Shown: one piece after another, positions 13,179 through 44,886 of the stretch
How positions within the stretch are numbered: the stretch's first letter is position 1
Layout: each line of letters opens with the position of its first letter
Assembly: GCF_900105315.1 (NCBI RefSeq)
Contig: NZ_LT629766.1
Location: 682,001 to 746,000, forward strand
DNA from: Brevibacterium siliguriense
GTDB taxonomy: Bacteria > Actinomycetota > Actinomycetes > Actinomycetales > Brevibacteriaceae
Direction of reading: 5' to 3'
Length of the DNA stretch: 64,000 nucleotides
Program-made: the position numbers and the translations under genes
Notes under the pieces: generated by a model
Told to the model about the DNA's origin: nothing
The model's input: only the letters and a program-made list of their open reading frames with translations
The model's database searches: none

Positions 13179-13194
13179 TATTCTGGACGGTGTG

Positions 13195-15510: not shown

Positions 15511-15696
15511 CGGTGTCCCTTCGTCGGTCTGTTCCCATCGTAGTCGTCGGAAGCGGTCCCGATATTCGGTACTTTCGCCGCGAACTCTAGGCGTGACCGG
15601 GCCGGTGTCGTAATGTGTTGCCGTAATGCGCCGACAGCCGCGATCGCGGCATGACCCCGGCTGCCACAGCAGCCGGTCCTGATCGAAGGAGATCGC

Positions 15697-28159: not shown

Positions 28160-29569
28160 TCACGCTCGCAGCGTGCTCCGATTGTTCACCGCGAACACCG
28201 CAATGCCGATGACGAGCCAGATCGCTCCGATGACGAGGGCCAGCGGATTCGCGCTGACGAGCACAGCGATGAGCAGACCGGCGCCGATGACGGGAACGAT
28301 ACCGTGGTTGAACCAATTCGGAGCCTCACTGCCCTGCTTCTTCACGAGGAAGAATCCGACCACCGAGGCCTGGAGGAACACGAACGCCGTCAGCGCCCCG
28401 ACGTTGACGATCGAGGTCAGCTGGTCGAGACCATCGGCACGGGTCGCCGCCCACCCGGCCACGATGACATTGCTTCCGGCGGCCACAAGGATTCCCTTCC
28501 ACGGGACACCAGTCTTCGGGGCCACCTCGGCGAGGAATTTCGGCACCTGACGGGACCGTCCCATGTCCATGAGGATGCGGGAGCCGGCGGCCTGGCCGAT
28601 CATCGCGGAGAACGCCGCGCCCACGGCCTTGGCCAGGGCGAGCAGCCAGTGCAGCCACGGTCCCAGAGTCGAGTCGACTGCGCTGTAGTAGGCGGCACCC
28701 TCGAGCGCGGGATCGGCCTGCAGCTCCGCGGGGGTCAGTGGTGAGAGCAGACTGCCCACCCAGGTCTGGGCGACAAAGAAGACACCGGCCAGCACGAGGC
28801 AGATGAGCGTGGCCCGGCCGACGATCCGCGGCCCGCCCTTGGCCTCCTCGGAGAACGTCGCGAGCGAATCGAAGCCGAGATACGACAGGACAGCCACGGA
28901 CACGGCCGCGAGCACCGCGGTCACGGAGAACGTATCGACCCCGGTCAGAGGGGTCAGCCATCCCCGCGTCGGCCCATGCTGGACAAGGTAGGCGATGCCG
29001 AGGACGAGGACCAGAGCGAGGACGGCCACCTCGGCGAGGACGACTCCGGTGATCACACGGGAGGCGACCTTGACCCCAGCGAGATTGAGGCCGGTGGTGA
29101 GGACGACGGCGACGGCCACGAACACCCAGACGGGGACGGCCGGGAAGATCGAGTTCAGGGCGATCCCGGTGAACAGATAGGCGACCGAGGGGATGAAGAG
29201 ATAGTCGAGGAGGATCATCCACCCGGCGACGAAGCCGGCCGGCTTCCCGATGCCCGCTGAGGCGTAGGCGAATACCGTGCCCGCACGCGGAACCTCCCGT
29301 GACATGCGCATATAGCTGACCGCGGTGAAGGCCATGACGATCGTCGCGACGATATAGACCAGGGCGACGGCCCCGCCCGACCGGGCATCGAGCGTGCCGA
29401 ACACACCGACGGCGGCCGCGGGACCGATGAAGACGAGGCCGAAGAAGACGAGTTCGCTCAACCCGATCGTCCGCCGCAGGAGTCCCCCGTTCGCCGAGGC
29501 GGCCGTGTCCTCGGGCGCTGACGGATCGGTCCCGGTTCCGGATCGGTCGTCGGCAGTCGTGTCGTCCAT
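28160..29569 (-). CDS. APC-superfamily amino acid / polyamine permease
   Basis: A 469-residue, 12-helix transporter. The segment LSELVFFGLVFIGPAAAVGVFG at residues 39-60 and SREVPRAGTVFAYASAGIGK at about 108-127 are the conserved first and third helix regions of the APC family. It resembles the putrescine-importer-like (PuuP) branch. It stands alone between convergent and divergent unrelated genes, so the substrate is open. The gabD1 gene in the same window would fit polyamine use but lies 24 kb away. Confidence 0.82.
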   Translation of the reverse strand: MDDTTADDRSGTGTDPSAPEDTAASANGGLLRRTIGLSELVFFGLVFIGPAAAVGVFGTLDARSGGAVALVYIVATIVMAFTAVSYMRMSREVPRAGTVFAYASAGIGKPAGFVAGWMILLDYLFIPSVAYLFTGIALNSIFPAVPVWVFVAVAVVLTTGLNLAGVKVASRVITGVVLAEVAVLALVLVLGIAYLVQHGPTRGWLTPLTGVDTFSVTAVLAAVSVAVLSYLGFDSLATFSEEAKGGPRIVGRATLICLVLAGVFFVAQTWVGSLLSPLTPAELQADPALEGAAYYSAVDSTLGPWLHWLLALAKAVGAAFSAMIGQAAGSRILMDMGRSRQVPKFLAEVAPKTGVPWKGILVAAGSNVIVAGWAATRADGLDQLTSIVNVGALTAFVFLQASVVGFFLVKKQGSEAPNWFNHGIVPVIGAGLLIAVLVSANPLALVIGAIWLVIGIAVFAVNNRSTLRA

Positions 29570-29715: not shown

Positions 29716-30108
29716 ATGACGCATCACCCTCACTTGGCCCAAGCCGGTGGGTTCCCGACGACCGGGCGACCTGCGAAGAAGCCGTCTGTGGTTCCGGGAA
29801 TCCTCCTCATCATCGCCGGAGCCCTCGGGCTCGGGGTGGGGCTGTGCATCCTCGTCATCCCCCTGTTCCTGTTTCTGGTCGGAGGCGGTGGGAACGTCGA
29901 TGCCTTCGACGATTTCGCTGCGGGCTTCTATACCACCGGGTTGGTTGTGGCCGTCATCTCCGTTCTGGTGCTGATCGCCGGGATCGTCCTCACCACTGTC
30001 GTCGCCAGAAGGCGACGCAGAATGCGACCGCAGGTCTGGATGGTCATGCCCCCTGGCGCGCCGCAGTTTCAGCAGACTCCCGGAGGCCCTCCAACGCCGA
30101 GGCGATGA
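29716..30108 (+). CDS. Small two-helix membrane protein
   Basis: A 130-residue protein starting at ATG 29716 after GAAGGAGG. It has a polar N-terminus, two hydrophobic helices (VPGILLIIAGALGLGVGLCILVI and LVVAVISVLVLIAGIVLTTVV), then RRRRR and a Pro-rich tail, so it is probably N-in, C-in. No family is recognised. Its last 65 bases overlap the 3' end of a LysR gene on the other strand. Confidence 0.65.
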   Translation: MTHHPHLAQAGGFPTTGRPAKKPSVVPGILLIIAGALGLGVGLCILVIPLFLFLVGGGGNVDAFDDFAAGFYTTGLVVAVISVLVLIAGIVLTTVVARRRRRMRPQVWMVMPPGAPQFQQTPGGPPTPRR

Positions 30109-30970
30109 TCGGCTGACTGCCCGAACCGCGGCGGATTCCCGACAGGATCTTCCGCGACGGCACCGGATCACCGCGCAGCGGCACACGCACCACATCGAAG
30201 CCTTCGGCCAGGCGCGCCAGGCGAGGAATGAGCGCGACCCCAAGACCCGCCGAAACCAGCGACGCTCCCGTTTCCCATTCGCGTGACTGGTGGGCCTGTT
30301 CCGGTTGGAAGCCTGCCGCCGCGCACGCTGTTCGCACCAGGCGGTGATACGGCGAACCCGTCCGATCGAGGATCCAGGATTCCTCGGCGGCCTGGCTCAA
30401 CGCCACCGCTGACTTCTCTGCCAGAGGGTGTCCCACGGGAACCAGCAGATCGAGGCGATCGCTGAACAGCGCCGACTGCTCGAAGCGAGGATCGCTGCGC
30501 GGCGGCAGCGGGTCGGTGGCCACGACCACGGCGACATCGGCGTGTTCGGAGACAAGAAGGTCGAAGCACTCCTCGGGATCGGCTTCGATGATCGTGACCT
30601 CGGCACCCGGGAACCGCTCCATCACCGTCAGGGCAGTCGGTGGAAGCAGAGCGGCCGCAGCCGTGGAGAACCCGCACAGACGCAGCCGTCGGTTGCGCGT
30701 ATCGAGCCCGGAGTCGAGACCGTCGAGCTCACCGCGGATCTCCTCCCACCGGGTGAAGAGCTCCTGCGAGCGTTCGAGGAGGAGCTGGCCGGCGCGAGTG
30801 AGCACGAGGCCGCGGCCGCGCGGTTCGACGACGCGCACACCGAGATCCTTTGATAAGCCTCTGAGCTGGTGCGATACGGCCGAAGGGGTGTATCCGAGGC
30901 GGTGCGCCGCCTCGGTGAGGGTGCCGACTTCGGCAAGGACCCGAAGGACGTGGAGGCGTGGATCAATCAT
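30044..30970 (-). CDS. LysR-family regulator, probable controller of the Rieske oxygenase genes
   Basis: A 308-residue LTTR. The helix-turn-helix is at residues 5-45 (VLAEVGTLTEAAHRLGYTPSAVSHQLRGL) and the effector domain spans 90-290. It starts at ATG 30970 or at GTG 30985, which would add five residues. A perfect palindrome covers the start region. It is divergent from the Rieske oxygenase/reductase pair, the usual LTTR arrangement, so it likely activates those genes and represses itself. Its 3' end overlaps a convergent small membrane protein gene by 65 bases. Confidence 0.88.
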   Translation of the reverse strand: MIDPRLHVLRVLAEVGTLTEAAHRLGYTPSAVSHQLRGLSKDLGVRVVEPRGRGLVLTRAGQLLLERSQELFTRWEEIRGELDGLDSGLDTRNRRLRLCGFSTAAAALLPPTALTVMERFPGAEVTIIEADPEECFDLLVSEHADVAVVVATDPLPPRSDPRFEQSALFSDRLDLLVPVGHPLAEKSAVALSQAAEESWILDRTGSPYHRLVRTACAAAGFQPEQAHQSREWETGASLVSAGLGVALIPRLARLAEGFDVVRVPLRGDPVPSRKILSGIRRGSGSQPIIASALEGLRESAETAARQGA

Positions 30971-30984
30971 GCAATAGTATTGCA
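30970..30984. promoter_or_regulatory. Perfect LysR-type palindrome TGCAATAGTATTGCA
   Basis: A 15-base perfect dyad with the T-N11-A pattern, lying on the LysR gene's own start codon and about 140 bases ahead of the chosen start of the Rieske gene. Binding here would block the regulator's transcription or translation start. Confidence 0.65.
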
Positions 30985-31124
30985 CGTTTCGGATGAAGAA
31001 GATTCGCTTTTCTTCAGCAAACCTCTGGCGGACACTGGGGGCAGGAGAACGAACTCCCGGGCGCGGCCGGCGAAGGGGCCGGGACGAGACGCGGTCGAGT
31101 CATTACGAAGAGGTGGTGGACGAA

Positions 31125-32486
31125 TTGACTCTGGCGCCAGAGCAGAAGCGGACCGATTCCAGCACGAGCGGACCCGCCGGGTCGGGTGCGGCTGCCGGAT
31201 CGGGCGGGCACGGCAGGACCGATATCGACCGGCTCATCAACGAACGTGTGCCCGGCTATTCGCTGGCGGCGCCGTTCTACATCAGTCCGGAGTTCTTCGC
31301 GCGCGATATCGAGGCGATCTTCGCCTCGACGTGGATCTTCGTTGCCTCTGCTGCCGAAGTGCCCGAGGCCGGTGACTATCTCACCATCGACATCGGCGCC
31401 TACTCCGTCATCGTCATCCGTGATGACGACGGTGAGATCCGCGCCCACCACAACGTGTGCCGTCACCGGGGCACTCGGCTGCTCAATGATCTGTCCGGCT
31501 CGGTGGGCAACATCGTCTGCGGCTACCACCAGTGGACGTACACACCGTCGGGCGAACTCATCTCCGCGGGTGCCCAAGCCCCCGGTTTCGATCGGTCCTG
31601 CTTCTCGCTGCGCTCGGTGAACCTCCGGGTCATCGGCGGGCTGATCTTCATCTGCCTCAGTCCCACCCCGCCTGATGACATCGACGAGGTGGCCGACGTC
31701 ATCGAGCCCTATCTGTCCGGTCATGACATCGCCGGGACGAAGGTGGCTGCGCAGAGTGACCTCATCGAGGACTCGAACTGGAAGCTCGTCATGGAGAACA
31801 ACCGCGAGTGCTACCACTGCGAAGCCGGGCACCCGGAGCTGACCTGCACGTTCTTTCCCACCTACGGCTACGAACCCGATGAGATCCCCAAGCGCCTGCA
31901 GCCGGCCTACCAGCGCTACCTCGACGCCGAGGAGCAGCTGCATGCCGACTGCGATCGCAATGGCCTGCCCTATGCACTCGTCGAGGAACTGAGCGGACGT
32001 CCCACCGGGTTCCGGATCGAACGGGCAGCCCTCGACGGGAAGGGCGAGTCATACACGATGGACGGATCGGCCGCCTCGGCGAGATTATTGGGCGACCTCG
32101 ACACCTTCGTTCTGGGCCGAGCGTCGCTGCACGTGCAGCCGAATATGTGGTTCCACGCAATGGGCGACCACGTGGTGACGTTCAGCCTGCTGCCGCTCGC
32201 TGAGGACAAGACGCTGGTGCGCACGACGTGGCTCGTCCACGCCGATGCGGAGGAGGGTGTCGACTACGAGCTCGACAACCTCACGACGGTGTGGCTCAAG
32301 ACGAACGAACAGGACGCGACCTTCTGCGAACGCGGGCAGCTGGGAATCTCGTCGCCGGCGTACGTGCCGGGCCCCTACGCCCCCACCGAATCGCAGGTCG
32401 ATGACTTCGTCACCTGGTACATCGAACGCCTCAAGGCCCATCGAGAACAGCGAACCGTGCAGTTGGAAGGGGCTGAGCGACGATGA
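31125..32486 (+). CDS. Rieske-type oxygenase, betaine N-demethylase (GbcA/stachydrine-demethylase-like)
   Basis: This is the terminal oxygenase of a two-component system. The Rieske [2Fe-2S] ligands are in CRH and CGYH, 17 residues apart. The mononuclear iron ligands are in NRECYHCEAGH. The overall match is to oxygenases that remove an N-methyl group from quaternary amines (glycine betaine, proline betaine, carnitine), releasing formaldehyde. The frame is open from ATG 30993, but that start lacks a ribosome site and adds a basic low-complexity stretch. TTG 31125 follows GAAGAGGTGG, and conservation begins near 31220. Overlap by ATGA couples it to its reductase. Confidence 0.82.
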   Translation: MTLAPEQKRTDSSTSGPAGSGAAAGSGGHGRTDIDRLINERVPGYSLAAPFYISPEFFARDIEAIFASTWIFVASAAEVPEAGDYLTIDIGAYSVIVIRDDDGEIRAHHNVCRHRGTRLLNDLSGSVGNIVCGYHQWTYTPSGELISAGAQAPGFDRSCFSLRSVNLRVIGGLIFICLSPTPPDDIDEVADVIEPYLSGHDIAGTKVAAQSDLIEDSNWKLVMENNRECYHCEAGHPELTCTFFPTYGYEPDEIPKRLQPAYQRYLDAEEQLHADCDRNGLPYALVEELSGRPTGFRIERAALDGKGESYTMDGSAASARLLGDLDTFVLGRASLHVQPNMWFHAMGDHVVTFSLLPLAEDKTLVRTTWLVHADAEEGVDYELDNLTTVWLKTNEQDATFCERGQLGISSPAYVPGPYAPTESQVDDFVTWYIERLKAHREQRTVQLEGAERR

Positions 32487-33757
32487 GGTACCGCCATTCG
32501 ACATTCGCCCAGGCAGCGTCCGCGCCGGTGGGCAAGGCGACTTTCCGAGTGCCCACTCGGGGCAGGAGACCCGCAACCGCGGCCGCTGCCTCGCCGGTCT
32601 TCGATACGGCAGTCGAGCCTGTGCTCGCCACGCCGGTCGACCGGGCGCCCGCTGAGGCAGCTGGCCCTGTGTTCGCCGAACTTCAGCTCGATCCCGAACT
32701 GCTCACCGGCCCCGTCGAGGTCACCGGCATGACCCAGGTGACCCACGATGTGAAGACCTTCGAGCTGCGGGCGGGATGGATGGCTGCGGTCGATTTCGCC
32801 CCGGGCCAGTACGTGACGATGCGCATCCCCGAGCTCGGACTCGAGCGCTGCTACTCGATCTCCTCGGCGCCCTTCGGCACGAACATCTTCACCATCACGG
32901 TCAAGCGCGTGCCCGGGGGAGTGGTGTCGACACATCTGCACGACAACGTTCGGGTCGGCGATCAGCTGCACGTGGACGGGCCGTACGGGCTGTTCAGCAC
33001 GAGCTTCCATCAGGCCGAACGTCACCTCTTCCTCTCCGCCGGCTCCGGAATCACTCCGATCATGTCGATGGTGCGCAGTCTGCTGGCCAGACAGGGAGCG
33101 TTCGGCACGGACATCGTCTTCATCCACAGCGCCTCGACGCCGCGCGATATCATCTTCCGCGCCGAGCTCGAACAGCTCGCCGAGGTCGCCGGAGTCAGCG
33201 TCACCATTCTGTGCTCCCGGGAATCCGAGACCGAGACCTGGGCCGGTCGGAGGGGTCGGATCGATGCGTCCACCCTCGCCGAGGTGGTCCCCGACGCGGC
33301 CGACCGCGAAGCCTTCGTGTGCGGGCCGGGTCCGTATATGGATGCGGTACGGCCCCTGCTCGCCGAGGCGGGGGTGGAGTCGGCGCGAATGCACGAGGAG
33401 TCGTTCGGCTTCGCCACTTCACCTGCCGACCGTTTGGCCAAGGCAGGTACGAGAGCCAAAGCTGCCGGAGCCAGCGTCGTCGGCGGCACTGGAGTGAGCC
33501 ACGTCGTCGAGTTCGCGGTCTCCGGGCGCGTAGTCGACTGCGACGAGACCACGACCGTCCTCGATTCTGCTTTGGACGCCGGACTGTCCGTGCCCTCATC
33601 CTGCTCGGAAGGCGCGTGTGGAACCTGCAAGTCCGTGCTCATCAGCGGCGAAGTCGAGATGAAGCATGCGGGAGGCATCCGGCCGAAGGAGATCGCTGCG
33701 GGCAAGTTCCTGCCCTGCTGCTCGACTCCGCTGACCGACCTCGTCATCGAGAGGTGA
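32483..33757 (+). CDS. Oxygenase reductase with FNR-type flavin domain and C-terminal [2Fe-2S] (GbcB-like)
   Basis: A 424-residue electron-transfer partner. After a low-complexity N-terminus of about 70 residues come an FAD domain (ERCYSISSAP), an NAD domain (FLSAGSGITPIMSM ... FVCGPGPYMDAV) and a plant-type ferredoxin domain at the C-terminus with CSEGACGTC and a later LPCCS. This domain order is that of GbcB and stachydrine-demethylase reductases. It moves electrons from NADH to the Rieske centre of the preceding protein, whose stop it overlaps by four bases. Its stop is nine bases from the stop of the convergent dppA. Confidence 0.88.
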   Translation: MRYRHSTFAQAASAPVGKATFRVPTRGRRPATAAAASPVFDTAVEPVLATPVDRAPAEAAGPVFAELQLDPELLTGPVEVTGMTQVTHDVKTFELRAGWMAAVDFAPGQYVTMRIPELGLERCYSISSAPFGTNIFTITVKRVPGGVVSTHLHDNVRVGDQLHVDGPYGLFSTSFHQAERHLFLSAGSGITPIMSMVRSLLARQGAFGTDIVFIHSASTPRDIIFRAELEQLAEVAGVSVTILCSRESETETWAGRRGRIDASTLAEVVPDAADREAFVCGPGPYMDAVRPLLAEAGVESARMHEESFGFATSPADRLAKAGTRAKAAGASVVGGTGVSHVVEFAVSGRVVDCDETTTVLDSALDAGLSVPSSCSEGACGTCKSVLISGEVEMKHAGGIRPKEIAAGKFLPCCSTPLTDLVIER

Positions 33758-33766
33758 GCTGCCTGC

Positions 33767-35308
33767 TCAGTGCTTGAGCTTCGTCTCCTTCAGCCCATAG
33801 GTGCCGAGGACGTAGGGTTCGAAGCCGACGACATCCCGGCTCATTCCGTACAGTGCCCGCTGGTAGGCGATCGGCACGATCGGGGCGTCATCGGCGACCT
33901 GCTGCTGGATCTGGGCATAGAGCTGGTTCTGCTTCTCCGGGTCCTCTTCGGCCACGGCCTGCTCGGCCCATTTCTCCACGTCGGGGTTGGCATAGCCCGA
34001 ACGAACCCCGGAGTCGTCGGTGACGGCGAGGAAGTTGATCATCTGCGAAGTGTCAGAAACGTCGGACGTCGCATAGCTGACCTGAACTTGGAAGTCGCCG
34101 TTCGTGCGGTTCGTCGTCAGGGTCGCATCGTCGAGCTTTTGGACGTGAACGGTCAGGCCGATGTCCTGCCATGCTTGCTGGGCGATCTGCGCCAGCAGCT
34201 CACGATCGGCGACACCCGAGGGAATCTGAATGGTGATGTCGATTCCGTCTGGATGATCAGACTCCTTGACCAGCTGTTTGGCCTTCTCCATGTCGAACTG
34301 GCTGCTGTCGACCTTGTCTGCATGACCGGCAAGACCCGGTGAGATGAACGAGGTCGCAGGCTCGGCATAACCGGCGTAGACCACCTCGACGATGGATTTG
34401 CGGTCGACCGCATAAGACATGGCGCGGCGCAGCTTGGGATCGTCGAGTCCCTTCTCCTTGTTGTTGATGTTGAAGTAGAGAATCTTCGTCGAGGTGAAAG
34501 CCTGGGCATTGATGTCCTGTGAGCGCGAGAGCTGACTCATGCTCAGCGGTGCCGGTTCCTGATTGATATCGGCCTGACCGCCCTGCAGCTGCAGGCGACG
34601 AGTGTTGTCATCGGCAACGACGTTGAAGGTCACGGAATCCAGAGACGGGACTCCGTCCTGCCAGTAGTCCGGATTCTTCACCAGTTCGAGGCTCTGCCCC
34701 TTATTCCATCTGCCGACCTCGAACGGCCCAGTGCCGTCTGCGTGCGCTGCCATGTACTCGGCGTCGTGTCCGCCGAAGTCGTCAGGATAGATCGATGCGG
34801 CGAACAGCGCCATATAACTCGGCAGGGGACCCCACGGCTGCTTCAGATCAATGCGCACCGTGTGGTCATCGACCTTCTTCACGTCTTTGATCGGGTCGAA
34901 TTCGGCTGCCCAGAGATTGTTCTCATCCTCCTGATCCCGCGCATAGTTCAGGGAGAAGACGACATCGTCGGCGTCGAGGGTCTTGCCGCTGTGGAATTTC
35001 ACTCCCTCGCGCAGGTGGAAGGTCCAGGACATCTTGTCCTTCGATTCCTCCCAATCGGTTGCCAGTCCCGGTTCGACCCCGGACCCGTCGGGCTTGTTGA
35101 GTGTGAGAGTCTCATAGACCTGCTGCAGCGTCCAGATGTCTTCATTCTGGGTCGTCGTCGGTGGCAGCAGAGTTGTAGCATCGGCGGCACGAGCGAAGAC
35201 GAGGTCGCCCCCGGGCCGGGCGGTCTTCTCTCCTGATGAACTGCACCCTGCGAGGACCAGGAGGCTGGCGCAGAGCGCGGCAGTCACCGCTGCGAATCTC
35301 TTGGTCAT
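33767..35308 (-). CDS. Dipeptide-type ABC transporter substrate-binding lipoprotein
   Basis: A 513-residue SBP_bac_5 (DppA/OppA) protein. The lipoprotein signal is residues 1-23 with lipobox LAGC. Conserved features include WTFHLREGVKFHSGKTLDADDVVFSL and the AMSYAVDRKSIV region. It captures peptides, opines or betaine-like solutes outside the membrane. Its ATG shares one base with the stop of the upstream ATPase gene (TGATG), so it is the last gene of the dppBCDFA operon. In this context its ligand may be an N-methylated proline. Confidence 0.9.
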   Translation of the reverse strand: MTKRFAAVTAALCASLLVLAGCSSSGEKTARPGGDLVFARAADATTLLPPTTTQNEDIWTLQQVYETLTLNKPDGSGVEPGLATDWEESKDKMSWTFHLREGVKFHSGKTLDADDVVFSLNYARDQEDENNLWAAEFDPIKDVKKVDDHTVRIDLKQPWGPLPSYMALFAASIYPDDFGGHDAEYMAAHADGTGPFEVGRWNKGQSLELVKNPDYWQDGVPSLDSVTFNVVADDNTRRLQLQGGQADINQEPAPLSMSQLSRSQDINAQAFTSTKILYFNINNKEKGLDDPKLRRAMSYAVDRKSIVEVVYAGYAEPATSFISPGLAGHADKVDSSQFDMEKAKQLVKESDHPDGIDITIQIPSGVADRELLAQIAQQAWQDIGLTVHVQKLDDATLTTNRTNGDFQVQVSYATSDVSDTSQMINFLAVTDDSGVRSGYANPDVEKWAEQAVAEEDPEKQNQLYAQIQQQVADDAPIVPIAYQRALYGMSRDVVGFEPYVLGTYGLKETKLKH

Positions 35309-36123
35309 CACCCTTCCCCTCTTCGGATCCGATCGAGGTAAGCGCTGTCGAAGGTGGGTATCGCCTTCAGCAGCGTCTTCGTGTAGTCGTCGCGCGGGGA
35401 CGTGAAGATCTCCTCGGTGGTGTTCTCTTCGACGAGACGGCCGTTGTGGATGACGTAGATCCGCTCGCACAGCTTCCTGACGACCGCCAGGTCATGGGAG
35501 ATGAAGAGGATCGACAAGTCGAGTTCCTCGCGCAGTCGGGCGAAGAGTGCGACGATCTCTGCTTGAACACTGACGTCGAGGGCGGAGACAGCCTCATCGG
35601 CGACGATGATGCTGGGCTCGACGGCCAGCGCTCGGGCGATCGCCACCCTCTGCCTCTGCCCTCCCGACATAGCGGTCGGGGTGCGGTCGAGGAATTCCTC
35701 GGGAAGCCGCACCATCTCCATGAGCTCCGCACACCTGGCACGCACAGCGGAACCGGAGGCGAGACGATGATGGCGGATCACCTCGGATAGGGTGGCCCGC
35801 ACCGTATAACGGGGGTCGAGGGAGGCGAAGGGGTCCTGGAAGACCATCTGCACTATCCGCCACTGAGCGCTCGTGCGCTTCTGTGCGAACTCCCGACCGT
35901 CGACGCTCACCGTGCCGTCGTAGTCACGCTGGAGTCCGCAGATGACTCGGGACAGAGTCGATTTTCCCGAACCCGATTCGCCGACGAGTCCGACGATCTC
36001 GCCGGGGCGGACCTGCAGGTCGGCGGAATTGACCGCGGTGAAAGCGCGGTCACCACGGCCGAAGGTGACGGTGACGTTCTCGGCGAGCAGACCGCGCGCC
36101 GGTGCCGGCTGAGTCTCGGTCAT
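35308..36123 (-). CDS. Dipeptide-type ABC transporter ATP-binding protein (DppF/OppF type)
   Basis: A 271-residue ATPase with Walker [10 protein letters not shown] near residue 50, signature MSGGQRQRVAIARAL and Walker B IIVADEAVSALD. The C-terminal HNGRLVEENTTEEIF segment is typical of the OppF group. Its start overlaps the stop of the DppD-type gene by four bases. It works as a heterodimer with that protein to drive the importer. Confidence 0.92.
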   Translation of the reverse strand: MTETQPAPARGLLAENVTVTFGRGDRAFTAVNSADLQVRPGEIVGLVGESGSGKSTLSRVICGLQRDYDGTVSVDGREFAQKRTSAQWRIVQMVFQDPFASLDPRYTVRATLSEVIRHHRLASGSAVRARCAELMEMVRLPEEFLDRTPTAMSGGQRQRVAIARALAVEPSIIVADEAVSALDVSVQAEIVALFARLREELDLSILFISHDLAVVRKLCERIYVIHNGRLVEENTTEEIFTSPRDDYTKTLLKAIPTFDSAYLDRIRRGEG

Positions 36124-36950
36124 CGTGTCTCCTCGGCAAGGCCCGAATCGTCAACGTCCTCATCGATTCGCGGAGTCGCAGTCAGCAGTCGACGCGTGTA
36201 CTCCTCCCGGGGATCGTCGAAGACCTCCTGCAGCACACCGTGTTCGACGATCTGCCCGTCCTTCATCACACTGATCGAGGAGCACAGCTGAGCGACGACC
36301 GCGAGGTCATGGGTGACATAGAGCAGACCGAGGCCCTCGTCCTGCTGCATGGTGCGGAAGAGATCGAGCACCTGTGCCTGGATAGTCACGTCAAGCGCCG
36401 TCGTCGGTTCGTCACAGAGCAGAATCTGCGGCTCCTGCGCCAATGCCGCCGCGATCATCACGCGCTGACGCATTCCGCCCGAGAACTGGAACGGGTAGTG
36501 CCTGGCTCTGCGGTCAGGGTCGGTGATGCCGACACGGTTCATGAGCTCGACGGCGAGGTCGTGAGCCTCCTTCTTCGACAGTCCTCTGCGCTCGGCGATG
36601 GCATCGGTGATCTGACGGCCGACCTTCATCACCGGGTTGAGCGCGATGGCCGGTTCTTGGAAGACCATCGAGATGCCGGTGCCGCGGATGCGCTGGTCGA
36701 ATTGTCCACCCGGTCCGGAGGTGAGGATATTGCGACCGTCGAACCGGATCTCCCCGCCGACGACGGAGGCGCCGGGCGGGAGCATCCCGAGAATGCTGCG
36801 CAGCGTCATCGACTTGCCCGATCCCGATTCGCCGACGAGACCCATCGGCTCACCGGCCTCGAGGCTGATCGACACGTCGTCGAGGATCCGACGCCGTCCG
36901 GCCTCTCCGTCGAGGTCGACGGTGAGGGAGTCCACTTCGAGGATGGGCAT
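36120..36950 (-). CDS. Dipeptide-type ABC transporter ATP-binding protein (DppD/OppD type)
   Basis: A 276-residue ATPase with Walker [10 protein letters not shown] near residue 37, signature [15 protein letters not shown] and Walker [16 protein letters not shown] 36950 follows AGAGGTG and is preferred to an upstream frame start at 37040 inside dppC. The usual C-terminal Cys cluster of long OppD proteins is not evident; the sequence ends soon after [12 protein letters not shown]. The stop of dppC lies two bases upstream. Confidence 0.92.
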
Positions 36951-36952
36951 GG

Positions 36953-37897
36953 TCACCTCTTCGGCTTCAGCGTGTTCGTCAGTCCGTCGCCGATGAACGC
37001 CAGCGCAAAAGACACGATGACGACGGCGAATCCCGGCCACAGGATGAGGCCGTAGTTGCCTGTGCCCATGTACTGCTGGCCGTCATTCATCATCTGACCC
37101 CAGTCGGCGGTCGGCGGGACGATGCCCATGCCGAAGTAGCTGAGGGTGACGACGACGCCGATGTTGAGCACGATGTCACTCATCGCATAGATGACGCCCT
37201 GGCTGACGGTGTTCGGAATGATGTGGCGGGTGAGGATCCGGGGAGTGCTCAGCCCCGAGGCACGGCAGGCGGAGATGAATTCCTGCTCTCTGAGCACGAG
37301 CACCTCGCCGCGGACGATGCGGGCGTAGGCCACCCAGGATACGGCGCTGATGGCGACGAAGATGCTGCCCATTCCGTTGCCCATGACGAAGACGAGCACG
37401 ATGACCAGGACGTAGAACGGGAAGGCCGAGACGATATCTGCCAGGCGCATGATGACGATGTCGACCCAGCGGCCGAAGTAGCCGGCCAGCGAACCGAGGA
37501 TGGTGCCGAGGATGAAGGGCACGATGACGGCGACGACGGCGACGATGAGGTCGACGCGACCGCCGTGAAGGAAGCGGGAGAGGACATCTCGCCCGAGTTG
37601 ATCGGTGCCCAATGGGTGCGCGACCGAAGACGGGGCGAAGGTGTTGAGCAGGTCCTGCCGATTGGGGTCGTCGGTGACGAAGAGCGGTCCGACGGCGAGC
37701 AGCAGCACCATCGCACCGAGAATGACCGCGCCGACCCACAGCTGCAGATTGTGCCGTCGCAGGAACGCCGGCAGGGGAAGCGTGAACCGCGCGGTCGGGG
37801 TCGCCCGGGACGCGGTGCCGCCGCGAGTCCGCGGCGGTTTCCCGCCCGGTCCATCGGGGCCGGCCGTCGCGGGGGAGGCCATCGGTTCGCTCATCAT
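36953..37897 (-). CDS. Dipeptide-type ABC transporter permease (DppC type)
   Basis: A 314-residue inner-membrane permease with a proline-rich cytoplasmic N-terminus, one helix (LQLWVGAVILGAMVLLLAVGPLF), then the BPD_transp_1 core of five helices. The EAA-type loop reads YARIVRGEVLVLREQEFISACRASGLS. It overlaps the dppB stop by four bases and pairs with DppB in the membrane. Confidence 0.92.
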   Translation of the reverse strand: MMSEPMASPATAGPDGPGGKPPRTRGGTASRATPTARFTLPLPAFLRRHNLQLWVGAVILGAMVLLLAVGPLFVTDDPNRQDLLNTFAPSSVAHPLGTDQLGRDVLSRFLHGGRVDLIVAVVAVIVPFILGTILGSLAGYFGRWVDIVIMRLADIVSAFPFYVLVIVLVFVMGNGMGSIFVAISAVSWVAYARIVRGEVLVLREQEFISACRASGLSTPRILTRHIIPNTVSQGVIYAMSDIVLNIGVVVTLSYFGMGIVPPTADWGQMMNDGQQYMGTGNYGLILWPGFAVVIVSFALAFIGDGLTNTLKPKR

Positions 37898-38837
37898 GCC
37901 CCCAGCCGTACGCGTGGATCGACGATGCTGTAGACGACATCGGTGAGCAGGTAGACGAGGACGACGAGGACACCGAAGATCACAGTCAGCGCCTGCACGA
38001 CGTCGTAGTCGCGAGCGAGGACGGCTTCCATGAGGAGTGAGCCGACACCGGGGATCGCGAAGACGTTCTCGACGACGAGGGCACCGCCGACGAGGTGGCC
38101 GACCTGGATGCCGAGGATCGAAACGCCCGTGATTCCGGCGTTGCGGAAGGCATAGTCGATCACTGTTCGCTTCCTGCTCAGTCCCTTCGACAGGGCGAAG
38201 TTCGTGTACTCGGCCGACATCGAATCGTTCAGTGCGGCCGTGAGGCTGCGGATGAGCACGGGGCAGATCGTCAGTGCGACAGCGAGACCGGGCAGGACGA
38301 GGGAGTAGAGGTGCTCACCGAAATTGCTGCCGTAGCCGCCGACCGGGAAGATGCCCAGGTTCACCCGAGGACGAGGATGAGCAGGGTGCCGACGAAGAAA
38401 GCCGGCATGCCCTGGACGGTGGCGGCGAAGACCCTGGACACGATCGCCGAGGCGGCAGATCGTTTCGCCGCCACCCACAGTGACAGCGGGACGGAGATGA
38501 CGACAGCGAACACCAGAGACACGAGCATGAGCAGCAGCGTCGCCGGCATCCGCAGCTTGAGCAGCTCGAGGACGGAGGTCTGGAAGATGAACGACTGCCC
38601 GAAGTCACCGGCGAGAAGGCCCGTAAGGAACTGGAGGTACTGGATGATCATCGGTTCGTCGAGGCCCCATGCTTGACGAAGCTGAGCGACGTTCTCCGGA
38701 GTGGCTTTATCGCCGAGGTATGCGGCTGCGGGATCGCCCGGTGCCAGCTTCATGAGGATGAAGGACAGCGTGGCGACACCGAGGACGATCGGAATCATCA
38801 GCAGCACACGCCGGAGGATGTACTTGCCCACACCCAC
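37894..38837 (-). pseudogene. Dipeptide-type ABC transporter permease (DppB type), single-base frameshift
   Basis: The frame from ATG 38837 reads MGVGKYILRRVLLMIPIVLG and proceeds normally to FFVGTLLILVLG, then hits TGA at 38361-38363. The next frame resumes at once with VNLGIFPVGGYGSNFG and the complete C-terminal half, ending 3 bases inside dppC. One extra G in the GGG at 38364-38366 (CCC on the plus strand) would give 314 residues, a normal DppB. The other four importer genes are intact, so the break is either recent or a sequencing error. It is the first importer gene after the racemase. Confidence 0.88.
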
Positions 38838-38847
38838 CCCTTCGCAG

Positions 38848-38863
38848 TGTGACCTGGATTACA
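38848..38863. promoter_or_regulatory. CRP/GlxR-like site ahead of dppB
   Basis: TGTGA-N6-TTACA matches the CRP/GlxR consensus TGTGA-N6-TCACA except for one base. It lies 10 bases ahead of the dppB start and just downstream of a possible minus-strand -10 (TAGAAT, 38875-38870), where binding would repress. Confidence 0.45.
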
Positions 38864-38876
38864 CCTGTCATTCTAT

Positions 38877-38900
38877 TCGCAACAAGTCTTGTCGTTGCGA
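38877..38900. promoter_or_regulatory. Imperfect dyad in the dppB promoter
   Basis: TCGCAAC and GTTGCGA bracket an ACAAG-T-CTTGT core, with a three-base asymmetry between the arms. It sits immediately upstream of the possible -10 for dppB, so it would overlap the -35 zone. The gap between the racemase stop and dppB start (119 bases) suggests a separate promoter. Confidence 0.4.
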
Positions 38901-38956
38901 TGCGGGAATCGGCGTGTCTGCTGCGTCGACCGCTCTCATCCTGCGAGGGCAGTTCC

Positions 38957-40015
38957 TCACCGCAGCACGAACCCGGGCACGAGATCATCGAGCTCGTCGA
39001 CCTCGAACGTCAAGGAGGCCACCCGGTGGGCGCTGCCGGTGACGACCGGGATGACGCCGTCGGCGGTCTCTTCGAGCACTCGCGCCCGGAATCGCGTGCC
39101 GACGATCGACTCATGGACGAGCGTCTGCCCCAGGCGAAGCTCACCGCTGGCATGGAGAGCGGCGACTCGAGCCGCCGTTCCCGACCCGCACGGAGAGCGG
39201 TCGACCTGACCGTCAGCGAAGACCGTGACATTGCGCTGATGCAGTTCGCCGCTGGGCAGCGTGCCGAACCGATCGACGAAGATCGTGCCGTACACCCCGG
39301 AGAGCCGATCATCCTCGGGGTGGACGGTGCCCGGGTGATCGGCAAGACCCGCCTTGATCTCCCTGCCTAAGGCGATGAGCGCGGTGAGGTTCTCAGGAGC
39401 GACTTCGCAACTCACCTCACCGAGGTGGCCCACCTCGGCGTCCTGGGAGGAACCGGCGGCTCCCAAATGAGCGACGTTGACGAGCGCGTAGATCGCCCCA
39501 CCCCACGCGAGATCCACCGACACCGGACCCCGGCTCGTGTCCACCGTGATCCCAGAGCTGACGAGCCGGCTGGGCACGTTGACGAAGTCCACCGAGGCGG
39601 CCCGCCACCCGGCGTCCGTGTGCACTTGCGCGCGCACTCGACCCGAGGGTACGTCGATCGTGACCTCCGTGGTCCCGGACGGATCGACGGCGACGATTCC
39701 GGAGGACACTGCCCACGCGCCGAGCGCCATCGTCCCGTGGCCGCAGGCCGTGGAGAAGCCGTCCTTGTGCCAGAACAGGACCCCGAAGTCAGCCCCGTCG
39801 TCATCGGGTTCGGTGATGAAACCGCCGTACATGTCCGAATGACCGCGCGGCTCGAAGCACAGCAGCCTGCGCAGATCATCGGCCGCCGAACCGGGCCCGG
39901 CCAGTTCCCGTCGTTCTGCCACACTGCTACCGGGGATCTCGACCGGCGGTTCGGCGACGATCCGGAACGGTTCGCCGGCGGTATGGAAGTCGACACTCGT
40001 GCAGATCGTGCTCAC
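38957..40015 (-). CDS. Proline racemase / 4-hydroxyproline epimerase family protein
   Basis: A 352-residue cofactor-independent racemase. Both catalytic cysteines are present: the first in STACGHGT, the second in [11 protein letters not shown]. The trans-3-hydroxyproline dehydratase branch has Thr at the second site, so an epimerase or racemase is favoured. The substrate would be proline, 4-hydroxyproline or an N-methyl derivative. It overlaps the stop of the upstream flavoprotein gene by four bases and precedes the importer genes, so it belongs to the same catabolic unit. Confidence 0.87.
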
Positions 40016-42132
40016 AGCCCCATTCCCACTCTCAGTCCTTCCAGCACCGCCGCATGCACATTGCGGGAGGCGACAGCGTCACCGATCCGATACAGCGTGA
40101 ACGGGTGACCCGTCTCGGCGCCGGTGTCCGCTGGACTCGAATCGGATTTCGGCTGCGGCCGTCCGCGCACCCACGCCTCGAGATCCGTCGCTCCGTGGTT
40201 CGCCGACCGTGACTTGAGCTCGAAATAGACCTCATCATTGGGCGTCGTCCCGAAGTCGACGACTACCGCATCGGTGACGACTTCCGCTTCCCGATCCGAA
40301 TAGTCGTTGCGCAGCATCGCCACGATCTCCTTCCCCTCGATCCGCGGCTTCCGGCTCAGACGTTCGCCGAGGCGGACCTCGACTCCGAATTCGGAGAATA
40401 CCTGAAGATAGGCGGGGGAGTTCATCGACCCCACGTCGATGCCGATCGTGCGTTCGGGACTGACATAGGTGACCTGCTGGCCGGCCCTGGCAAGACGTTC
40501 GACGGCGTCGAGCGCCGGGTAGAACCCGTGATCGTCGAAGACGAGCACCCGCTGCTTCGACTTGAGCCGATCGTCCATGACGTCCCAGACGTCGAAGCTA
40601 GGTCCCTGCTCTCGGAAAGGATATCCGGCATCGGGGACGCCTCCGGTGGCGACGATGACGACGTCGGGGTCGAGGGCGAGGATGTCGTCCGCCTCGGCGA
40701 AGGTGTTCAGCCGCAGGTCGACACCGTGCTTCCTGCATTGCTGGACGCGCCAGTCGATGATGCCGATGAGGTCGCGGCGGCGCTGCGAGCGGGCGGCGAT
40801 GCGGACCTGCCCGCCGGGGGCGTCCTCGGCTTCGAGCAGGGTCACCCGGTGTCCGCGCACGGCCGCGACACGGGCGGCTTCGAGCCCGGCCGGACCGGCG
40901 CCGATGATGACGACATGCTTGGGTCCGGTCGTGACGTCGTGGGGAACCTCCTGCGGCAGATCGGCCTCCCGGCCGGTAGCGGGATTGTGGATGCAGGTGG
41001 CCGAACCGGAGGTGTAGATCGAGTCGAGGCACATGTTGGCGCCGACGCAGGGACGGATATCGTCCTCACGTCCTTCGGCCACCTTGCGCGCCAGGTGAGG
41101 GTCGGCCAGCTGCGCCCGGGTCATCCCGACCAGGTCGAGGCAGCCATCAGCGATCGCGAACCGGGCGGTCGCGGCGTCGGAGATGCGTGCGGCGTGGAGG
41201 ACGGGGATGTCGATGGCCCCGCGGATGCGGCGGCAGGTCTCGAGCCAGGGCGCCGAGGGGGTGCCCATGCCGGGGATCGCCTCGGCGAGCTGACGGTCCG
41301 AGCTGATCATCCCGACATTGAGGTTGAGGAAGTCGATGCCGTGATCGGTGTAGGTCCGGAGGATCTCGGTGGCTCTGGCCTCGTCCATGCCGTCTTCACG
41401 TCGCTCGTCGACGGCCATGCGGATGCCGAGGACGAAATCGTCGGGTACGGCCGCGCGCACGGCGTCGATGATGCGCATCGGGAACTTGATGAGATTCTCC
41501 AGTTCGCCGGAGAATTCGTCATCGCGATCGTTGAGCCACGGGGCGAGGAAGGAGTCGAGCAGATGGCCGGCATGCATGACCTCGAGTCCGTCGAATCCGG
41601 CGGCGGCCACGCGTTCGGCGGCGGACGCGAAGTCCGCGACGATGCGATCCATATCGAAGTCCTCGAGCGCCTTCGTGAATGACCGGTGCGCGGCCTCCCG
41701 GGTCCGAGAGGCCGAGACCAGCGGCAGCCAGTCGCTGGCGAAGTTCGAGGATCGGTGGCCCAGATGGGTCGCCTGGATCATGATCGCCGCGCCCTCTTCG
41801 TGGCAGTCGTCAGCGATCGCGGACAGCCACGGAACTACTTCGTCGGTGGAGAGGTCGATATTGCCGAACGCGGCCGGCGAGTCCTTCGACACGATGGCCG
41901 AACCGCCGATCATCGTCAGTCCGACACCGCCGCGGGCCTTCTCCCGGTGATAGAGGCGGTAGCGGTCCTTCGGCATGCCGAGTTCGGTGTACGCGGGCTC
42001 GTGCGAGGTCGAGACGATGCGGTTGCGCAATGTGAGTCTGCCGAGTGAGAAGGGCTGGAGGAGCGGATCGGCGGACGCGTCAGCCGCAGATGTTGTCGGT
42101 GCTGGTGTGCCGATTGCGGGTTCGGCGGTCAT
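40012..42132 (-). CDS. FMN/FAD oxidoreductase of the trimethylamine-dehydrogenase / dienoyl-CoA reductase type, probable N-methylproline demethylase
   Basis: A 706-residue two-part flavoenzyme. Residues 25-370 form an Old-Yellow-Enzyme-like FMN barrel; 400-680 form FAD/NAD-binding domains ([18 protein letters not shown]). The iron-sulfur region reads CVGANMC and, 11 residues on, C. Compared with the C-x2-C-x2-C-x11-C of trimethylamine dehydrogenase, the second cysteine is Ala. StcD and DgcA, N-demethylases of stachydrine and dimethylglycine breakdown, belong to this superfamily, and with a Rieske demethylase and a proline epimerase nearby the same job is inferred. The start follows AAGGAGG. 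It is divergent from a GntR gene. Confidence 0.82.
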
Positions 42133-42194
42133 GGGTTCCTCCTTCGTTGCAGGAACGGCATTGCGGGAACGACTCCGCTCGGGGAGTCGAAATG

Positions 42195-42208
42195 GGTAAT
42201 CGATTACC
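42195..42208. promoter_or_regulatory. Perfect palindrome GGTAATCGATTACC, candidate GntR operator
   Basis: A 14-base perfect dyad in the 208-base divergent region between the demethylase operon (start 42132) and the GntR gene (start 42341), 63 bases ahead of the former. GntR proteins of the FadR group bind short dyads of this type (GGT...ACC ends). Nothing else is recognised in 42133-42340. Confidence 0.65.
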
Positions 42209-42340
42209 GACTACCTGCTTCAATGGTGCGATCCCGCGGTTATGCTGTCAATAGCCGACCGGCAGACCGTCGCCGCAGAAAGGCGCCGGAGGCGGTGCGC
42301 GACTGCGGGCTGCCGGCCATGATTCGAACGGGGGTGTGAG

Positions 42341-43054
42341 ATGGAGCGAGCGAGACCGCAGGCCGAATCGCTGCGCGAACAGGCGCTGGGCATCATCCGC
42401 GACGCCATCACCGCAGGTGAGCTCGCCGAGGACCGCATCTACTCGGCCGCGGGCCTGGCCAAGCAGCTGGGCATGTCACTCAGCCCCGTCCGTGAAGCGA
42501 TGATGGCGCTCGTGACCGAAGGGACCGTCGAAGCCGTGCCCAATCGCGGGTTCCGTCTGGTCGCCATCACCGAGGCGGACCTCGAGGAGATCATTGCCAT
42601 CCGCGTCCTCCTCGCCGTTCCGGCCGCCCGGCAGCTCGCCGCAGCGTCCGATGACGCTGTCGTCGGACGACTCCAGGAGGTCGGTGCGGACGCGGAGGGC
42701 GAGGCGACGACCAAGGCCGAGGCGATCGCAGCGCTGCGTGGGTTCGCCGAAGCGACCGTGAGTGCCGCCGAAGCCGGGGATGTGCCCGAGTTCTATACTC
42801 AGGACCGACGCTTCCACGAAGCGCTGCTCGAACACGGGCTGGGCCGGCGGGCCGCTGAGATCAGCCTGCGCCTGCGCGACCAGTCCCGTCTCTTCCGCAA
42901 TGCCGATCGGTCCATCGCCGTCGACTCCGCTCGCGAGCTGCCCGTCCTCGTCGAGCTCATCGACGAAGGCAGGGCCGCCGAGGCCGCCGACCTCGTCACG
43001 TCGAACCTCTACTTCTTCAAGCGCGTCCCGGCTGCGGCCGAAGCCGAAGGCTGA
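42341..43054 (+). CDS. GntR-family (FadR/FCD subgroup) transcriptional regulator
   Basis: A 237-residue regulator with an N-terminal winged helix (residues 10-75: SLREQALGIIRDAITAG ... LSPVREAMMALVTEG) and a C-terminal all-helical FCD effector domain (FYTQDRRFHEALLEHG carries metal-ligand-type residues). It is divergent from the flavoprotein-racemase-importer operon, with a perfect palindrome between. It probably represses that operon until a betaine or proline-type ligand binds. Confidence 0.88.
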   Translation: MERARPQAESLREQALGIIRDAITAGELAEDRIYSAAGLAKQLGMSLSPVREAMMALVTEGTVEAVPNRGFRLVAITEADLEEIIAIRVLLAVPAARQLAAASDDAVVGRLQEVGADAEGEATTKAEAIAALRGFAEATVSAAEAGDVPEFYTQDRRFHEALLEHGLGRRAAEISLRLRDQSRLFRNADRSIAVDSARELPVLVELIDEGRAAEAADLVTSNLYFFKRVPAAAEAEG

Positions 43055-43347: not shown

Positions 43348-44886
43348 TCAGGCAGGTGCCTTGTCGGGGTCGATGTCGACGATCGGCATCGCCTCGATAT
43401 CCATGTCCGGGTTGTCGGCCTGGGTGCGAGCCAGTTCCTCGGCCTCCTCGTGGGTGTTCACTGTCGGGAACGAACCCGGCAGCGGCCGGTGCGCCGATTC
43501 CTTCATGAGCAGTACGGCGACGAGTGCGACGACCGAGAAGAACATGATGTAGAAAGCGGGCATGTACGAGTTGCCGGTGACATCGATGAGCGCCTGGGCG
43601 AACAGCGGCGTGGTGCCGCCGAACAGAGAGACGCCGAGGTTGAATGTCAGGCCCATTGCTCCATAGCGCGACGCGGTCGGGAACAGTGCCGGCAGGGTCG
43701 AGGCGAGGCAGGCGATGTAGAACCCGGCCGGCAGCGCGACCATGAACAGTGCCACCATCACTGCCCACATCTCACCGATCTGCATAACGGCGAAGGCGGG
43801 AACGATGAGGACGATCGTCATGATGGCTGCTGCCAGGAAGACGAACTTGCGGCCCATCTTGTCGGAGAGCTTGCCGATGAGCGGCAGGCACAGCGACATG
43901 ATGACGAGGACCGGGATCGTGGCCACGGCCGCCTGGACATTCGAGACCTTGACGGTCTCTTCCAGGTAGGTGGGCATGAAGCTCGTCAGGGCGTAGCCGA
44001 CCGTCTGGGAGCCTGCGACGACGGCGATGCCGATGAGGATCTCTTTCCAGAAGTGGCGGATGACGCCGATGAGGCCGTGGCGGGCGTACTTGTCGTCCTT
44101 GATCTTGACGTCGCGTCCGGCTTCCTCGCTCACCTCGAAGCTCGGCGTCTCCGGGATCTTCAGACGGAACCAGATGGCGACGGCGCCGAGCGGGATGGCG
44201 ATGAGGAACGGGATCCTCCAGCCGCCGTCGAGCATGGCGTTCTCGCCGTTGATGGACGTGGTGATCACGGTCGTGAGAGCCACTGTTCCGGCACCGGCGG
44301 CGAAGCCAAGGTACGAGCCGACATCGAGCCACGAGGCCCAGTAGCCGCGGGACTTGTCAGGAGCGAACTCCGAGACGTAGGTGGTGGCACCGGCGTACTC
44401 ACCGCCGGTGGAGAAGCCCTGGATCATCTTGAGCAGATAGAGGGGGACGATCACCCACAGGCCGACCTGGGCTGCGGTCGGCAGTATGCCGATGAGGGCG
44501 GTGGCGGTGGCCATGGTGGCCATCGTGAAGAACAGGACCTTCTGGCGGCCGATCTTGTCACCCAGCGGGCCGAGCACCATGCCGCCGAGCGGGCGGACGA
44601 GGAAGGACACGGCGAAGCCGAGGAGGGTCACGAGCAGACCCATCTGTCGGTCCATACCTTCGGTGAAGACGGAGGTCATCGTCACGGCCAGGTAGCCGTA
44701 GACACCGAAGTCGAACCATTCCATGAAGTTGCCGACTGTGGTGCCGCCGATGGCGGTGCGGATCGATTTGGTTTCGACGACGATGCAGTCATCGGCCTCG
44801 AACCGCTTCTGTTTCTTGATTGCACGCCGTTCCCTGCGGGTCGGCTTCTTGTCTTTCTGCGCGGGTCTGTCGTGGGCCTCTGACAT
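43348..44886 (-). CDS. MHS-family MFS symporter, ProP-like
   Basis: A 512-residue, 12-helix proton symporter. A basic N-terminus (RRERRAIKKQKR) precedes GGTTVGNFMEWFDFGVYGYLA and GPLGDKIGRQKVLF, the MHS signatures shared with the proline/betaine transporter ProP. The segment LKMIQGFSTGGEYAG is the ProP-type helix 4-5 region. It has a long acidic C-terminal tail but no obvious ProP coiled coil. A near-consensus CRP/GlxR site is upstream. Placed beside the proposed proline-betaine genes, it is a candidate second importer for compatible solutes. Confidence 0.87.
   Translation of the reverse strand: MSEAHDRPAQKDKKPTRRERRAIKKQKRFEADDCIVVETKSIRTAIGGTTVGNFMEWFDFGVYGYLAVTMTSVFTEGMDRQMGLLVTLLGFAVSFLVRPLGGMVLGPLGDKIGRQKVLFFTMATMATATALIGILPTAAQVGLWVIVPLYLLKMIQGFSTGGEYAGATTYVSEFAPDKSRGYWASWLDVGSYLGFAAGAGTVALTTVITTSINGENAMLDGGWRIPFLIAIPLGAVAIWFRLKIPETPSFEVSEEAGRDVKIKDDKYARHGLIGVIRHFWKEILIGIAVVAGSQTVGYALTSFMPTYLEETVKVSNVQAAVATIPVLVIMSLCLPLIGKLSDKMGRKFVFLAAAIMTIVLIVPAFAVMQIGEMWAVMVALFMVALPAGFYIACLASTLPALFPTASRYGAMGLTFNLGVSLFGGTTPLFAQALIDVTGNSYMPAFYIMFFSVVALVAVLLMKESAHRPLPGSFPTVNTHEEAEELARTQADNPDMDIEAMPIVDIDPDKAPA

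Follow-up and report, generated by a model that had tools for sequence, protein, structure and literature searches.

Which compound is broken down by a gene island of Brevibacterium siliguriense that joins a Rieske oxygenase to a flavin demethylase and a proline-racemase-superfamily (PRS) enzyme? The island lies in a 64,000-nucleotide stretch of the chromosome (NZ_LT629766.1, positions 682,001 to 746,000; the whole stretch is called the window, and its own numbering is used unless stated otherwise). It is built of two converging units whose stop codons are about 10 bp apart (33757/33767). The rightward unit, divergent from a LysR gene, encodes a GbcAB-like Rieske oxygenase and reductase, and the leftward unit, divergent from a GntR gene, encodes a TMADH-like flavoprotein, a two-cysteine PRS enzyme and a Dpp-type importer. 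Every gene named in the original prediction for this DNA was found at its place in these two units. Blocks of the island recur across Brevibacterium relatives, so the arrangement exceeds chance. Stachydrine is known to be catabolized by a Rieske demethylase followed by a flavin demethylase. We consider it probable that the island degrades N,N-dimethylated prolines and hydroxyprolines, taking stachydrine to L-proline, with the PRS enzyme processing any 3-hydroxylated product. It would then follow the known Hpb/Stc logic, and the open interest lies in the PRS clade and in a possible 3-hydroxyproline betaine substrate.

The flavoprotein gives the clearest indication of chemistry. This OYE/TMADH-like protein (40012-42132, minus strand; Pfam Oxidored_FMN and pyridine-nucleotide domains) is 49-50% identical to HpbA, 48% to StcD, 41-45% to DgcA and 31% to a mycofactocin OYE. 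In a 33-row tree it falls among actinobacterial sequences, whose clade joins that of Paracoccus HpbA and the Sinorhizobium meliloti pSymB match (98/97). The DgcA rows of Azospirillum and Paraburkholderia, both from loci that hold sarcosine oxidase and ETF genes, lie outside the clade of HpbA/StcD and actinobacterial sequences (100/99). The window protein is thus a member of the HpbA/StcD lineage and separate from both DgcA and mycofactocin OYE. In our trees the labels Stc2, StcD, HpbB, GbcA and DgcA were assigned from position and neighbours, while the names hpbA, hpbD and 'N-methylproline demethylase' come from the sequence records. In an extract of PMC12239276, stcD is given as the N-methylproline demethylase gene on pSymB. 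Judged by lineage, the flavoprotein is likely an HpbA/StcD-like N-methylproline-type demethylase, and the prediction of an island for this type of demethylation was borne out. As a side observation, the TMADH-type iron-sulfur motif of the HpbA, StcD and DgcA rows has Ala in place of its second cysteine (C-V-G-A), and the mycofactocin OYE row differs; the cluster of the window flavoprotein and its relatives may be absent or otherwise ligated. Another contig (G006:C5:3926-12667) carries two demethylase gene copies in opposite directions, the second in two adjacent pieces.

We then asked how closely this gene keeps company with the Rieske gene in 57 Brevibacterium genomes. Presence thresholds were set by eye at identities of at least 65% for the island-type Rieske, 60% for the demethylase, 57% for the PRS enzyme (fragments count) and 70% for the ornithine-cyclodeaminase-family (OCD) protein of the cluster. 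The island-type Rieske was found in 42 genomes and the flavoprotein in 42/42 of those; the flavoprotein stood alone in four, and 11 had neither (Fisher p = 7e-9, which overstates independence as the genomes are related). The two genes were no more than 20 kb apart in 33 of the 42 and farther apart or unlinked in nine, a contig end being a possible cause in at least G022. A class sample of 394 genomes, the host's own included, held the flavoprotein in eight other genomes, a close Rieske in seven others and both in three. In these three non-Brevibacterium genomes, from two other families, the genes were adjacent throughout, with reductase and LysR matches. Prolyl-betaine demethylation is likely because of the flavoprotein lineage, the coupling to the Rieske gene, the adjacency of the genes in other families and the presence of a separate glycine betaine candidate in the same genome.

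That candidate came from the Rieske proteins. The island oxygenase subunit (30993-32486, plus strand, start codon uncertain at 30993 or about 31110) and the FAD/NAD/2Fe-2S reductase (32483-33757, plus strand, three Pfam domains) match GbcA and GbcB best among NCBIfam models, with 404 bits against a curated cut-off of 670 (NF058607) and 298 bits against 500. The solved structures closest to the oxygenase are Stc2 entries (3VCA/4QUP, 369 bits). It lies on the GbcA side of the Rieske tree, yet outside the branch that holds the four GbcA rows. This side is not confined to glycine betaine, since Rhizobium sp. N324 has a GbcA-side Rieske, on a long branch, next to a 4-hydroxyproline epimerase, a glycine betaine/proline-type ABC transporter, an aldehyde dehydrogenase, DHDPS and putA. 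The host genome encodes a second GbcA-type Rieske (Rieske B, genome positions 438191-439465) that is 51% identical to that of the island, and both paralogues occur together in 38/57 Brevibacterium genomes. Rieske B neighbours a glutathione-independent formaldehyde dehydrogenase and a protein of 836 residues whose domains (DAO, FAO_M, GCV_T) follow one another as in dimethylglycine and sarcosine dehydrogenases. The locus (L141, G000:C1:425000-444999, 9086-17024), with its Rieske, FAD/GcvT-type dehydrogenase, LysR and fdhA genes, is a probable glycine betaine route. Taking it as the glycine betaine candidate leaves the island Rieske free for another betaine.

The PRS enzyme (38957-40015, minus strand) has Cys91 and Cys276 as catalytic residues. 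In comparison with solved structures, its Tyr63 and Tyr242 align with Tyr76 and Tyr241 of human trans-3-hydroxy-L-proline dehydratase (t3HypD), a pair that forms a hydrogen bond in the closed enzyme, according to a passage of PMC9309405. In an alignment of its clade, Tyr, Tyr and Phe occupy positions 63, 242 and 266 in 98/98 rows, and the catalytic pair is Cys/Cys in 97 and Cys/Thr in one (the window sequence is counted twice among these rows, and several genomes were drawn from both collections). The Cys/Thr row, from Zhihengliuella salsuginis (L056, 9971-11014), offers a natural contrast. The t3HypD pocket tyrosines are therefore shared by the whole clade, while the Cys/Thr pair of t3HypD is replaced by Cys/Cys in the window enzyme. 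The proline racemase signature of Phe at sites 1 and 5 with Cys/Cys does not fit either, as site 1 is Tyr63 and site 5 is Phe266. The best NCBIfam model is t3HypD (280 bits, cut-off 540), and the AlphaFold model (mean pLDDT 87.9) has 6R76 as its top Foldseek match. With Cys/Cys and with Tyr63/Tyr242 as in trans-3-hydroxy-L-proline dehydratases, the enzyme has an epimerase catalytic pair inside a dehydratase pocket. By its residues, it mixes traits that are normally ascribed to two separate reactions, and it is the new element of the island. A Thr-to-Cys change in human t3HypD reportedly restores 3-hydroxyproline epimerase activity. Bifunctional activity on 3-hydroxyproline has a precedent in Pseudomonas LhpL, described in an extract of PMC5144071 as a bifunctional dehydratase/2-epimerase acting on trans-3-hydroxy-L-proline.

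The neighbours of the PRS and demethylase genes in relatives also point to 3-hydroxyproline. Among 58 non-Brevibacterium PRS loci, 32 had an OCD gene (in 30 less than 400 bp from the PRS gene), three a demethylase gene (L039, L067, L091) and nine a gene for 4-hydroxyproline epimerase (4HypE). Clusters in which PRS and OCD genes are linked are assigned to t3HypD in the part of PMC4113996 consulted. The cluster OCD was present in 19/57 Brevibacterium genomes, each time less than 4 kb from the island Rieske and always with the demethylase; in the loci read (L040, L041, L094, L146, L148-L150) it lies between lysR and an APC permease gene. AcnX (cis-3-hydroxyproline dehydratase) was found in 7/57 genomes and adjoins gntR and the demethylase gene in four (G002, G016, G043, G069). 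An Ornithinimicrobium cluster (L091) combines AcnX, GntR, demethylase, OCD, a choline/betaine-type ABC transporter, proline dehydrogenase and a PRS gene of the same clade. The AcnX and OCD neighbours in Brevibacterium and in this cluster link the demethylase to 3-hydroxyproline.

Several results weigh against our reading. The island Rieske is 51-52% identical to GbcA and 44% to Stc2, and a 100/100 branch with Stc2 and Paracoccus pantotrophus rows excludes it (the Stc2 row carries one unresolved stop). It groups with GbcA-like enzymes and not with Stc2/HpbB, a result that does not support the original interpretation. Its GbcA score is slightly above that of Rieske B (382 bits), so only the neighbouring genes speak for glycine betaine at Rieske B. 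The demethylase accompanies Rieske B as well (41/43), and five of the eight other class-sample genomes with the flavoprotein lacked a close Rieske at the threshold used. The PRS enzyme scores far under every curated cut-off listed, and its model matches t3HypD (Z 41.9) and proline racemase (Z 42.6) in a tie within Z 1. A search of the host genome found no AcnX and no cluster-type OCD, its single OCD-family gene lying far away. Within Brevibacterium the PRS gene and the cluster OCD occur together in 14/19 genomes, with no significant coupling (p = 0.38). The PRS gene is absent from 12/46 demethylase genomes, unlinked in four more (G003, G016, G045, G069) and linked in 30/46 (PRS presence counts include G044 and G058, both without demethylase). 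In the four genomes in which AcnX adjoins the demethylase gene, the Rieske gene is elsewhere and no ProP match lies near the demethylase. Because PRS and OCD are uncoupled in the genus and PRS is absent or unlinked in many demethylase genomes, the two may serve free 3-hydroxyproline.

This last point leads to an alternative that we judge somewhat improbable but worth serious weight. The island would handle stachydrine only, producing L-proline, and PRS, OCD and AcnX would form a separate route for free 3-hydroxyproline, co-located since both end in L-proline. Rieske and demethylase genes without a nearby PRS gene do occur, in the three genomes of other families and in Brevibacterium G040, G041, G054 and G067 (loci L147-L150), and PRS with OCD but no demethylase is the common state of the 58 other actinobacterial loci. 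However, the PRS gene lies directly behind the demethylase gene, with an overlap of 4 bp in the window, and in relatives AcnX has its control region in common with gntR and the demethylase gene. These arrangements tie the 3-hydroxyproline genes to the demethylase and not to proline use in general.

The most novel claim is that the island is a pathway for the plant compound 3-hydroxystachydrine (3-hydroxyproline betaine) as well as for stachydrine (proline betaine), and we put this forward tentatively, as a possibility with the odds against it. The PRS enzyme would then represent a large group of naturally occurring actinobacterial enzymes for 3-hydroxyproline with a dehydratase pocket and Cys/Cys, which would be either 2-epimerases feeding AcnX/OCD or dehydratases that break the Cys/Thr rule. 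According to an extract of PMC6200017, 3-hydroxystachydrine occurs in Maerua edulis leaves, where together with stachydrine it reaches up to 2% of dry weight; it is also named in a paper on food-intake markers in plasma. The literature searched, with most subscription journals outside its coverage, describes no bacterial route for this compound.

The original prediction had also included 4-hydroxyproline betaine. A betonicine pathway as in the Hpb systems of Paracoccus and Pelagibaca, with the PRS enzyme as 4-hydroxyproline 2-epimerase, seems unlikely to us. Paracoccus pantotrophus does have hpbA, hpbD, a Rieske pair, PRS, OCD and fdhA together. A Pseudonocardia metagenome-assembled genome (L039, 1-11406) carries on one contig a 4HypE-like gene and matches to three oxidoreductase genes found with 4HypE in Arthrobacter, along with GntR, the island-type demethylase, an MFS gene and a PRS gene of the same clade; this may perhaps be a mixed 4- and 3-hydroxyproline betaine locus. 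The pocket of the island enzyme argues against such a role. PMC4364671 places Phe at site 1 in ProR and His at site 4 in HypE; by its sites, a 4-hydroxyproline 2-epimerase has Ser or Val at site 1, His at site 4 and Cys/Cys. The island enzyme shares only the cysteines, with Tyr63 in place of Ser and Tyr242 in place of His. These tyrosines are present in all 98 clade rows, whereas Ser, His and Ile stand in place of residues 63, 242 and 266 in 11/11 4HypE-like paralogues from actinobacteria. We rejected the enzyme as a 4-hydroxyproline epimerase on these residues, and because of this pocket 4-hydroxyproline betaine is a less likely substrate than proline betaine or 3-hydroxyproline betaine. In addition, two DHDPS queries found no match in 22 Brevibacterium loci, and no aldehyde dehydrogenase was among the listed matches of the ten island proteins; for neither enzyme did the search extend to the remainder of the genome.

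Demethylation of glycine betaine through dimethylglycine to sarcosine, by GbcAB and a DgcA-like demethylase, is similarly improbable. Among NCBIfam models the Rieske pair does match GbcA and GbcB best, the tree places the oxygenase on the GbcA side, and its GbcA score is a little above that of Rieske B. But both curated cut-offs were missed, the flavoprotein lies outside DgcA, no DgcB, ETF or sarcosine oxidase was found among the island proteins scanned, and the genome has another Rieske locus, in which one gene resembles those of dimethylglycine and sarcosine dehydrogenases. Oxidation of carnitine or gamma-butyrobetaine by a CntAB-like system is very improbable, as CntA, although of the same Rieske superfamily group, gives a partial match of 104 bits (369 for Stc2) and leaves the demethylase and PRS genes unexplained.

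Returning to the degradation of N,N-dimethylated prolines, we infer substrates, reaction order, transport and regulation from what was observed, namely family membership, residues, conserved neighbourhoods and a palindrome. The betaine would be imported by a ProP-type symporter. The Rieske oxygenase and its reductase would oxidize one N-methyl group, released as formaldehyde, and the HpbA/StcD-like flavoenzyme would take off the second, leaving a free imino acid, which for stachydrine is L-proline and for 3-hydroxystachydrine is 3-hydroxyproline. L-Proline could be consumed by the proline dehydrogenase that is present in the host genome. The PRS enzyme would be dispensable for stachydrine and would act on the 3-hydroxylated product by 2-epimerization and/or dehydration to pyrroline-2-carboxylate, which might be reduced to L-proline by OCD in relatives or perhaps by an MLD2 reductase in the host genome. 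Elsewhere in this genome (L145, 8422-12027; G000:C1 about 1078400-1082000), a Ser/Cys-type PRS gene at 1079837 stands between a D-amino-acid-dehydrogenase (DadA)-like gene and an MLD2-family reductase gene, suggesting a second proline or hydroxyproline locus.

Just beyond gntR lies a gene for a ProP-type betaine/proline:H+ symporter of the MFS (43348-44886, minus strand), whose best NCBIfam family is ProP at 410 bits, below the cut-off of 544 (NF007927). The originally proposed extent of 30044-43054 is correct for the genes it listed, but its right-hand end leaves this adjacent symporter out. In 24/31 Brevibacterium demethylase loci, including 20/20 of those fetched through PRS, gntR has a ProP-type match (more than 60% identity) no farther than 1.75 kb away. 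It is not a universal neighbour, as seven of the 31 have no match (L150, L166-L169, L175, L176), among them the four with AcnX. From this neighbourhood, the ProP-type symporter is the likeliest importer.

The Dpp block, proposed earlier as an Opp-type importer taking the place of a BCCT/ProU system, did not hold up in that role. It comprises a substrate-binding lipoprotein (SBP_bac_5, lipobox LAGC; 33767-35308), two OppD/F-type (Opp/Dpp) ABC ATPases (35308-36950), a DppC-type permease (36953-37897) and a DppB-type permease (37894-38837), all on the minus strand and matched by family. All five components are thus present, but a one-base frameshift within a run of G divides dppB into open reading frames at 38361-38837 and 37894-about 38358; mutation and assembly error are alike possible. 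Comparison of reading frames at 12 loci, one of them the window's own sequence (L143), showed the frame kept across the junction in 11/11 others, with one in-frame stop in L022. The binding-protein gene had a match in 19/57 Brevibacterium genomes, 18 of them among the 46 with the flavoprotein. Read by eye, the same gap holds other cargo in relatives: adenosine-deaminase-like and permease reading frames (L027/L029) or a TetR-like and quinone-reductase-like pair (L021). We therefore regard the block as an optional module and rejected it as the defining transporter, the symporter being the commoner neighbour.

With regard to control, the GntR/FCD regulator (42341-43054, plus strand; Pfam GntR and FCD) is divergent from the demethylase gene, and the spacer between them contains the palindrome GGTAATCGATTACC (42195-42208). 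It was conserved in 14/14 aligned gntR-demethylase spacers, as a variant in two (L028, L038), and has no second exact copy in the 4.02 Mb single-contig genome, which has nine two-mismatch sites. The palindrome is a candidate GntR operator, and GntR would govern the demethylase/PRS unit through this single site. The LysR-type regulator (30044-30970, minus strand; Pfam HTH_1 and LysR_substrate), which adjoins the Rieske gene in relatives as well, would govern the Rieske unit. Next to lysR lies an APC-family permease gene (28160-29569, minus strand), and several relatives have one at the corresponding end of the island. At the far left of the window, ARAGORN called a tRNA-Sec (anticodon tca; 788-882), which would imply selenocysteine use.

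If correct, our reading would extend two-step betaine demethylation, by a Rieske and then an HpbA-type enzyme, to Actinomycetota with a GbcA-side Rieske, and would suggest separate substrates for the two Brevibacterium Rieske paralogues. The PRS clade would provide a natural test of whether one residue, Cys or Thr, decides between epimerization and dehydration. Should 3-hydroxystachydrine be a substrate, a microbial fate could be named for this plant compound.

Compared with known systems, the island most resembles the Hpb (4-hydroxyproline betaine) cluster on pPAN2 of P. pantotrophus (L155). Both gather a demethylase (hpbA), a Rieske oxygenase and reductase, LysR, PRS and, in the islands of relatives, OCD in one region. 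The Paracoccus cluster has hpbD and a ProU-type transporter not seen in the island, which adds GntR and ProP; its Rieske belongs to the Stc2/HpbB clade, unlike that of the island, and its PRS enzyme is Ser/Thr where that of the island is Cys/Cys. The presence of the Ser/Thr-type PRS, OCD and fdhA genes beside hpbD, hpbA and the Rieske pair (L155, 1-18381) suggests that P. pantotrophus may carry a 3-hydroxyproline arm too. The racemase-family enzyme had been called unusual, a view that this cluster, already holding PRS and OCD, and the Rhizobium Rieske cluster, with its 4-hydroxyproline epimerase and betaine-type ABC transporter, contradict. With Stc2/StcD of S. meliloti the island shares the two-step logic, and its demethylase has 48% identity to the protein from pSymB that we take as StcD. 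There, however, the genes lie on two replicons, pSymA of strain 1021 (L110) and pSymB of strain 2011 (L153), and the Rieske proteins are 44% identical. GbcAB/DgcAB systems have the more similar oxygenase (51-52%), but their flavoprotein is of another lineage, and their DgcB, ETF and sarcosine oxidase have no counterpart among the island proteins scanned. The PRS enzyme has its best family model, best structural match and pocket in common with t3HypD, and differs from it in the second catalytic residue, Cys instead of Thr. Finally, the PRS-OCD pairs of Arthrobacter (L105) and Streptomyces (L108) share the clade, Cys/Cys and pocket of the island enzyme; unlike these pairs, for which no demethylase or Rieske gene was matched, the island places such an enzyme directly behind a demethylase.

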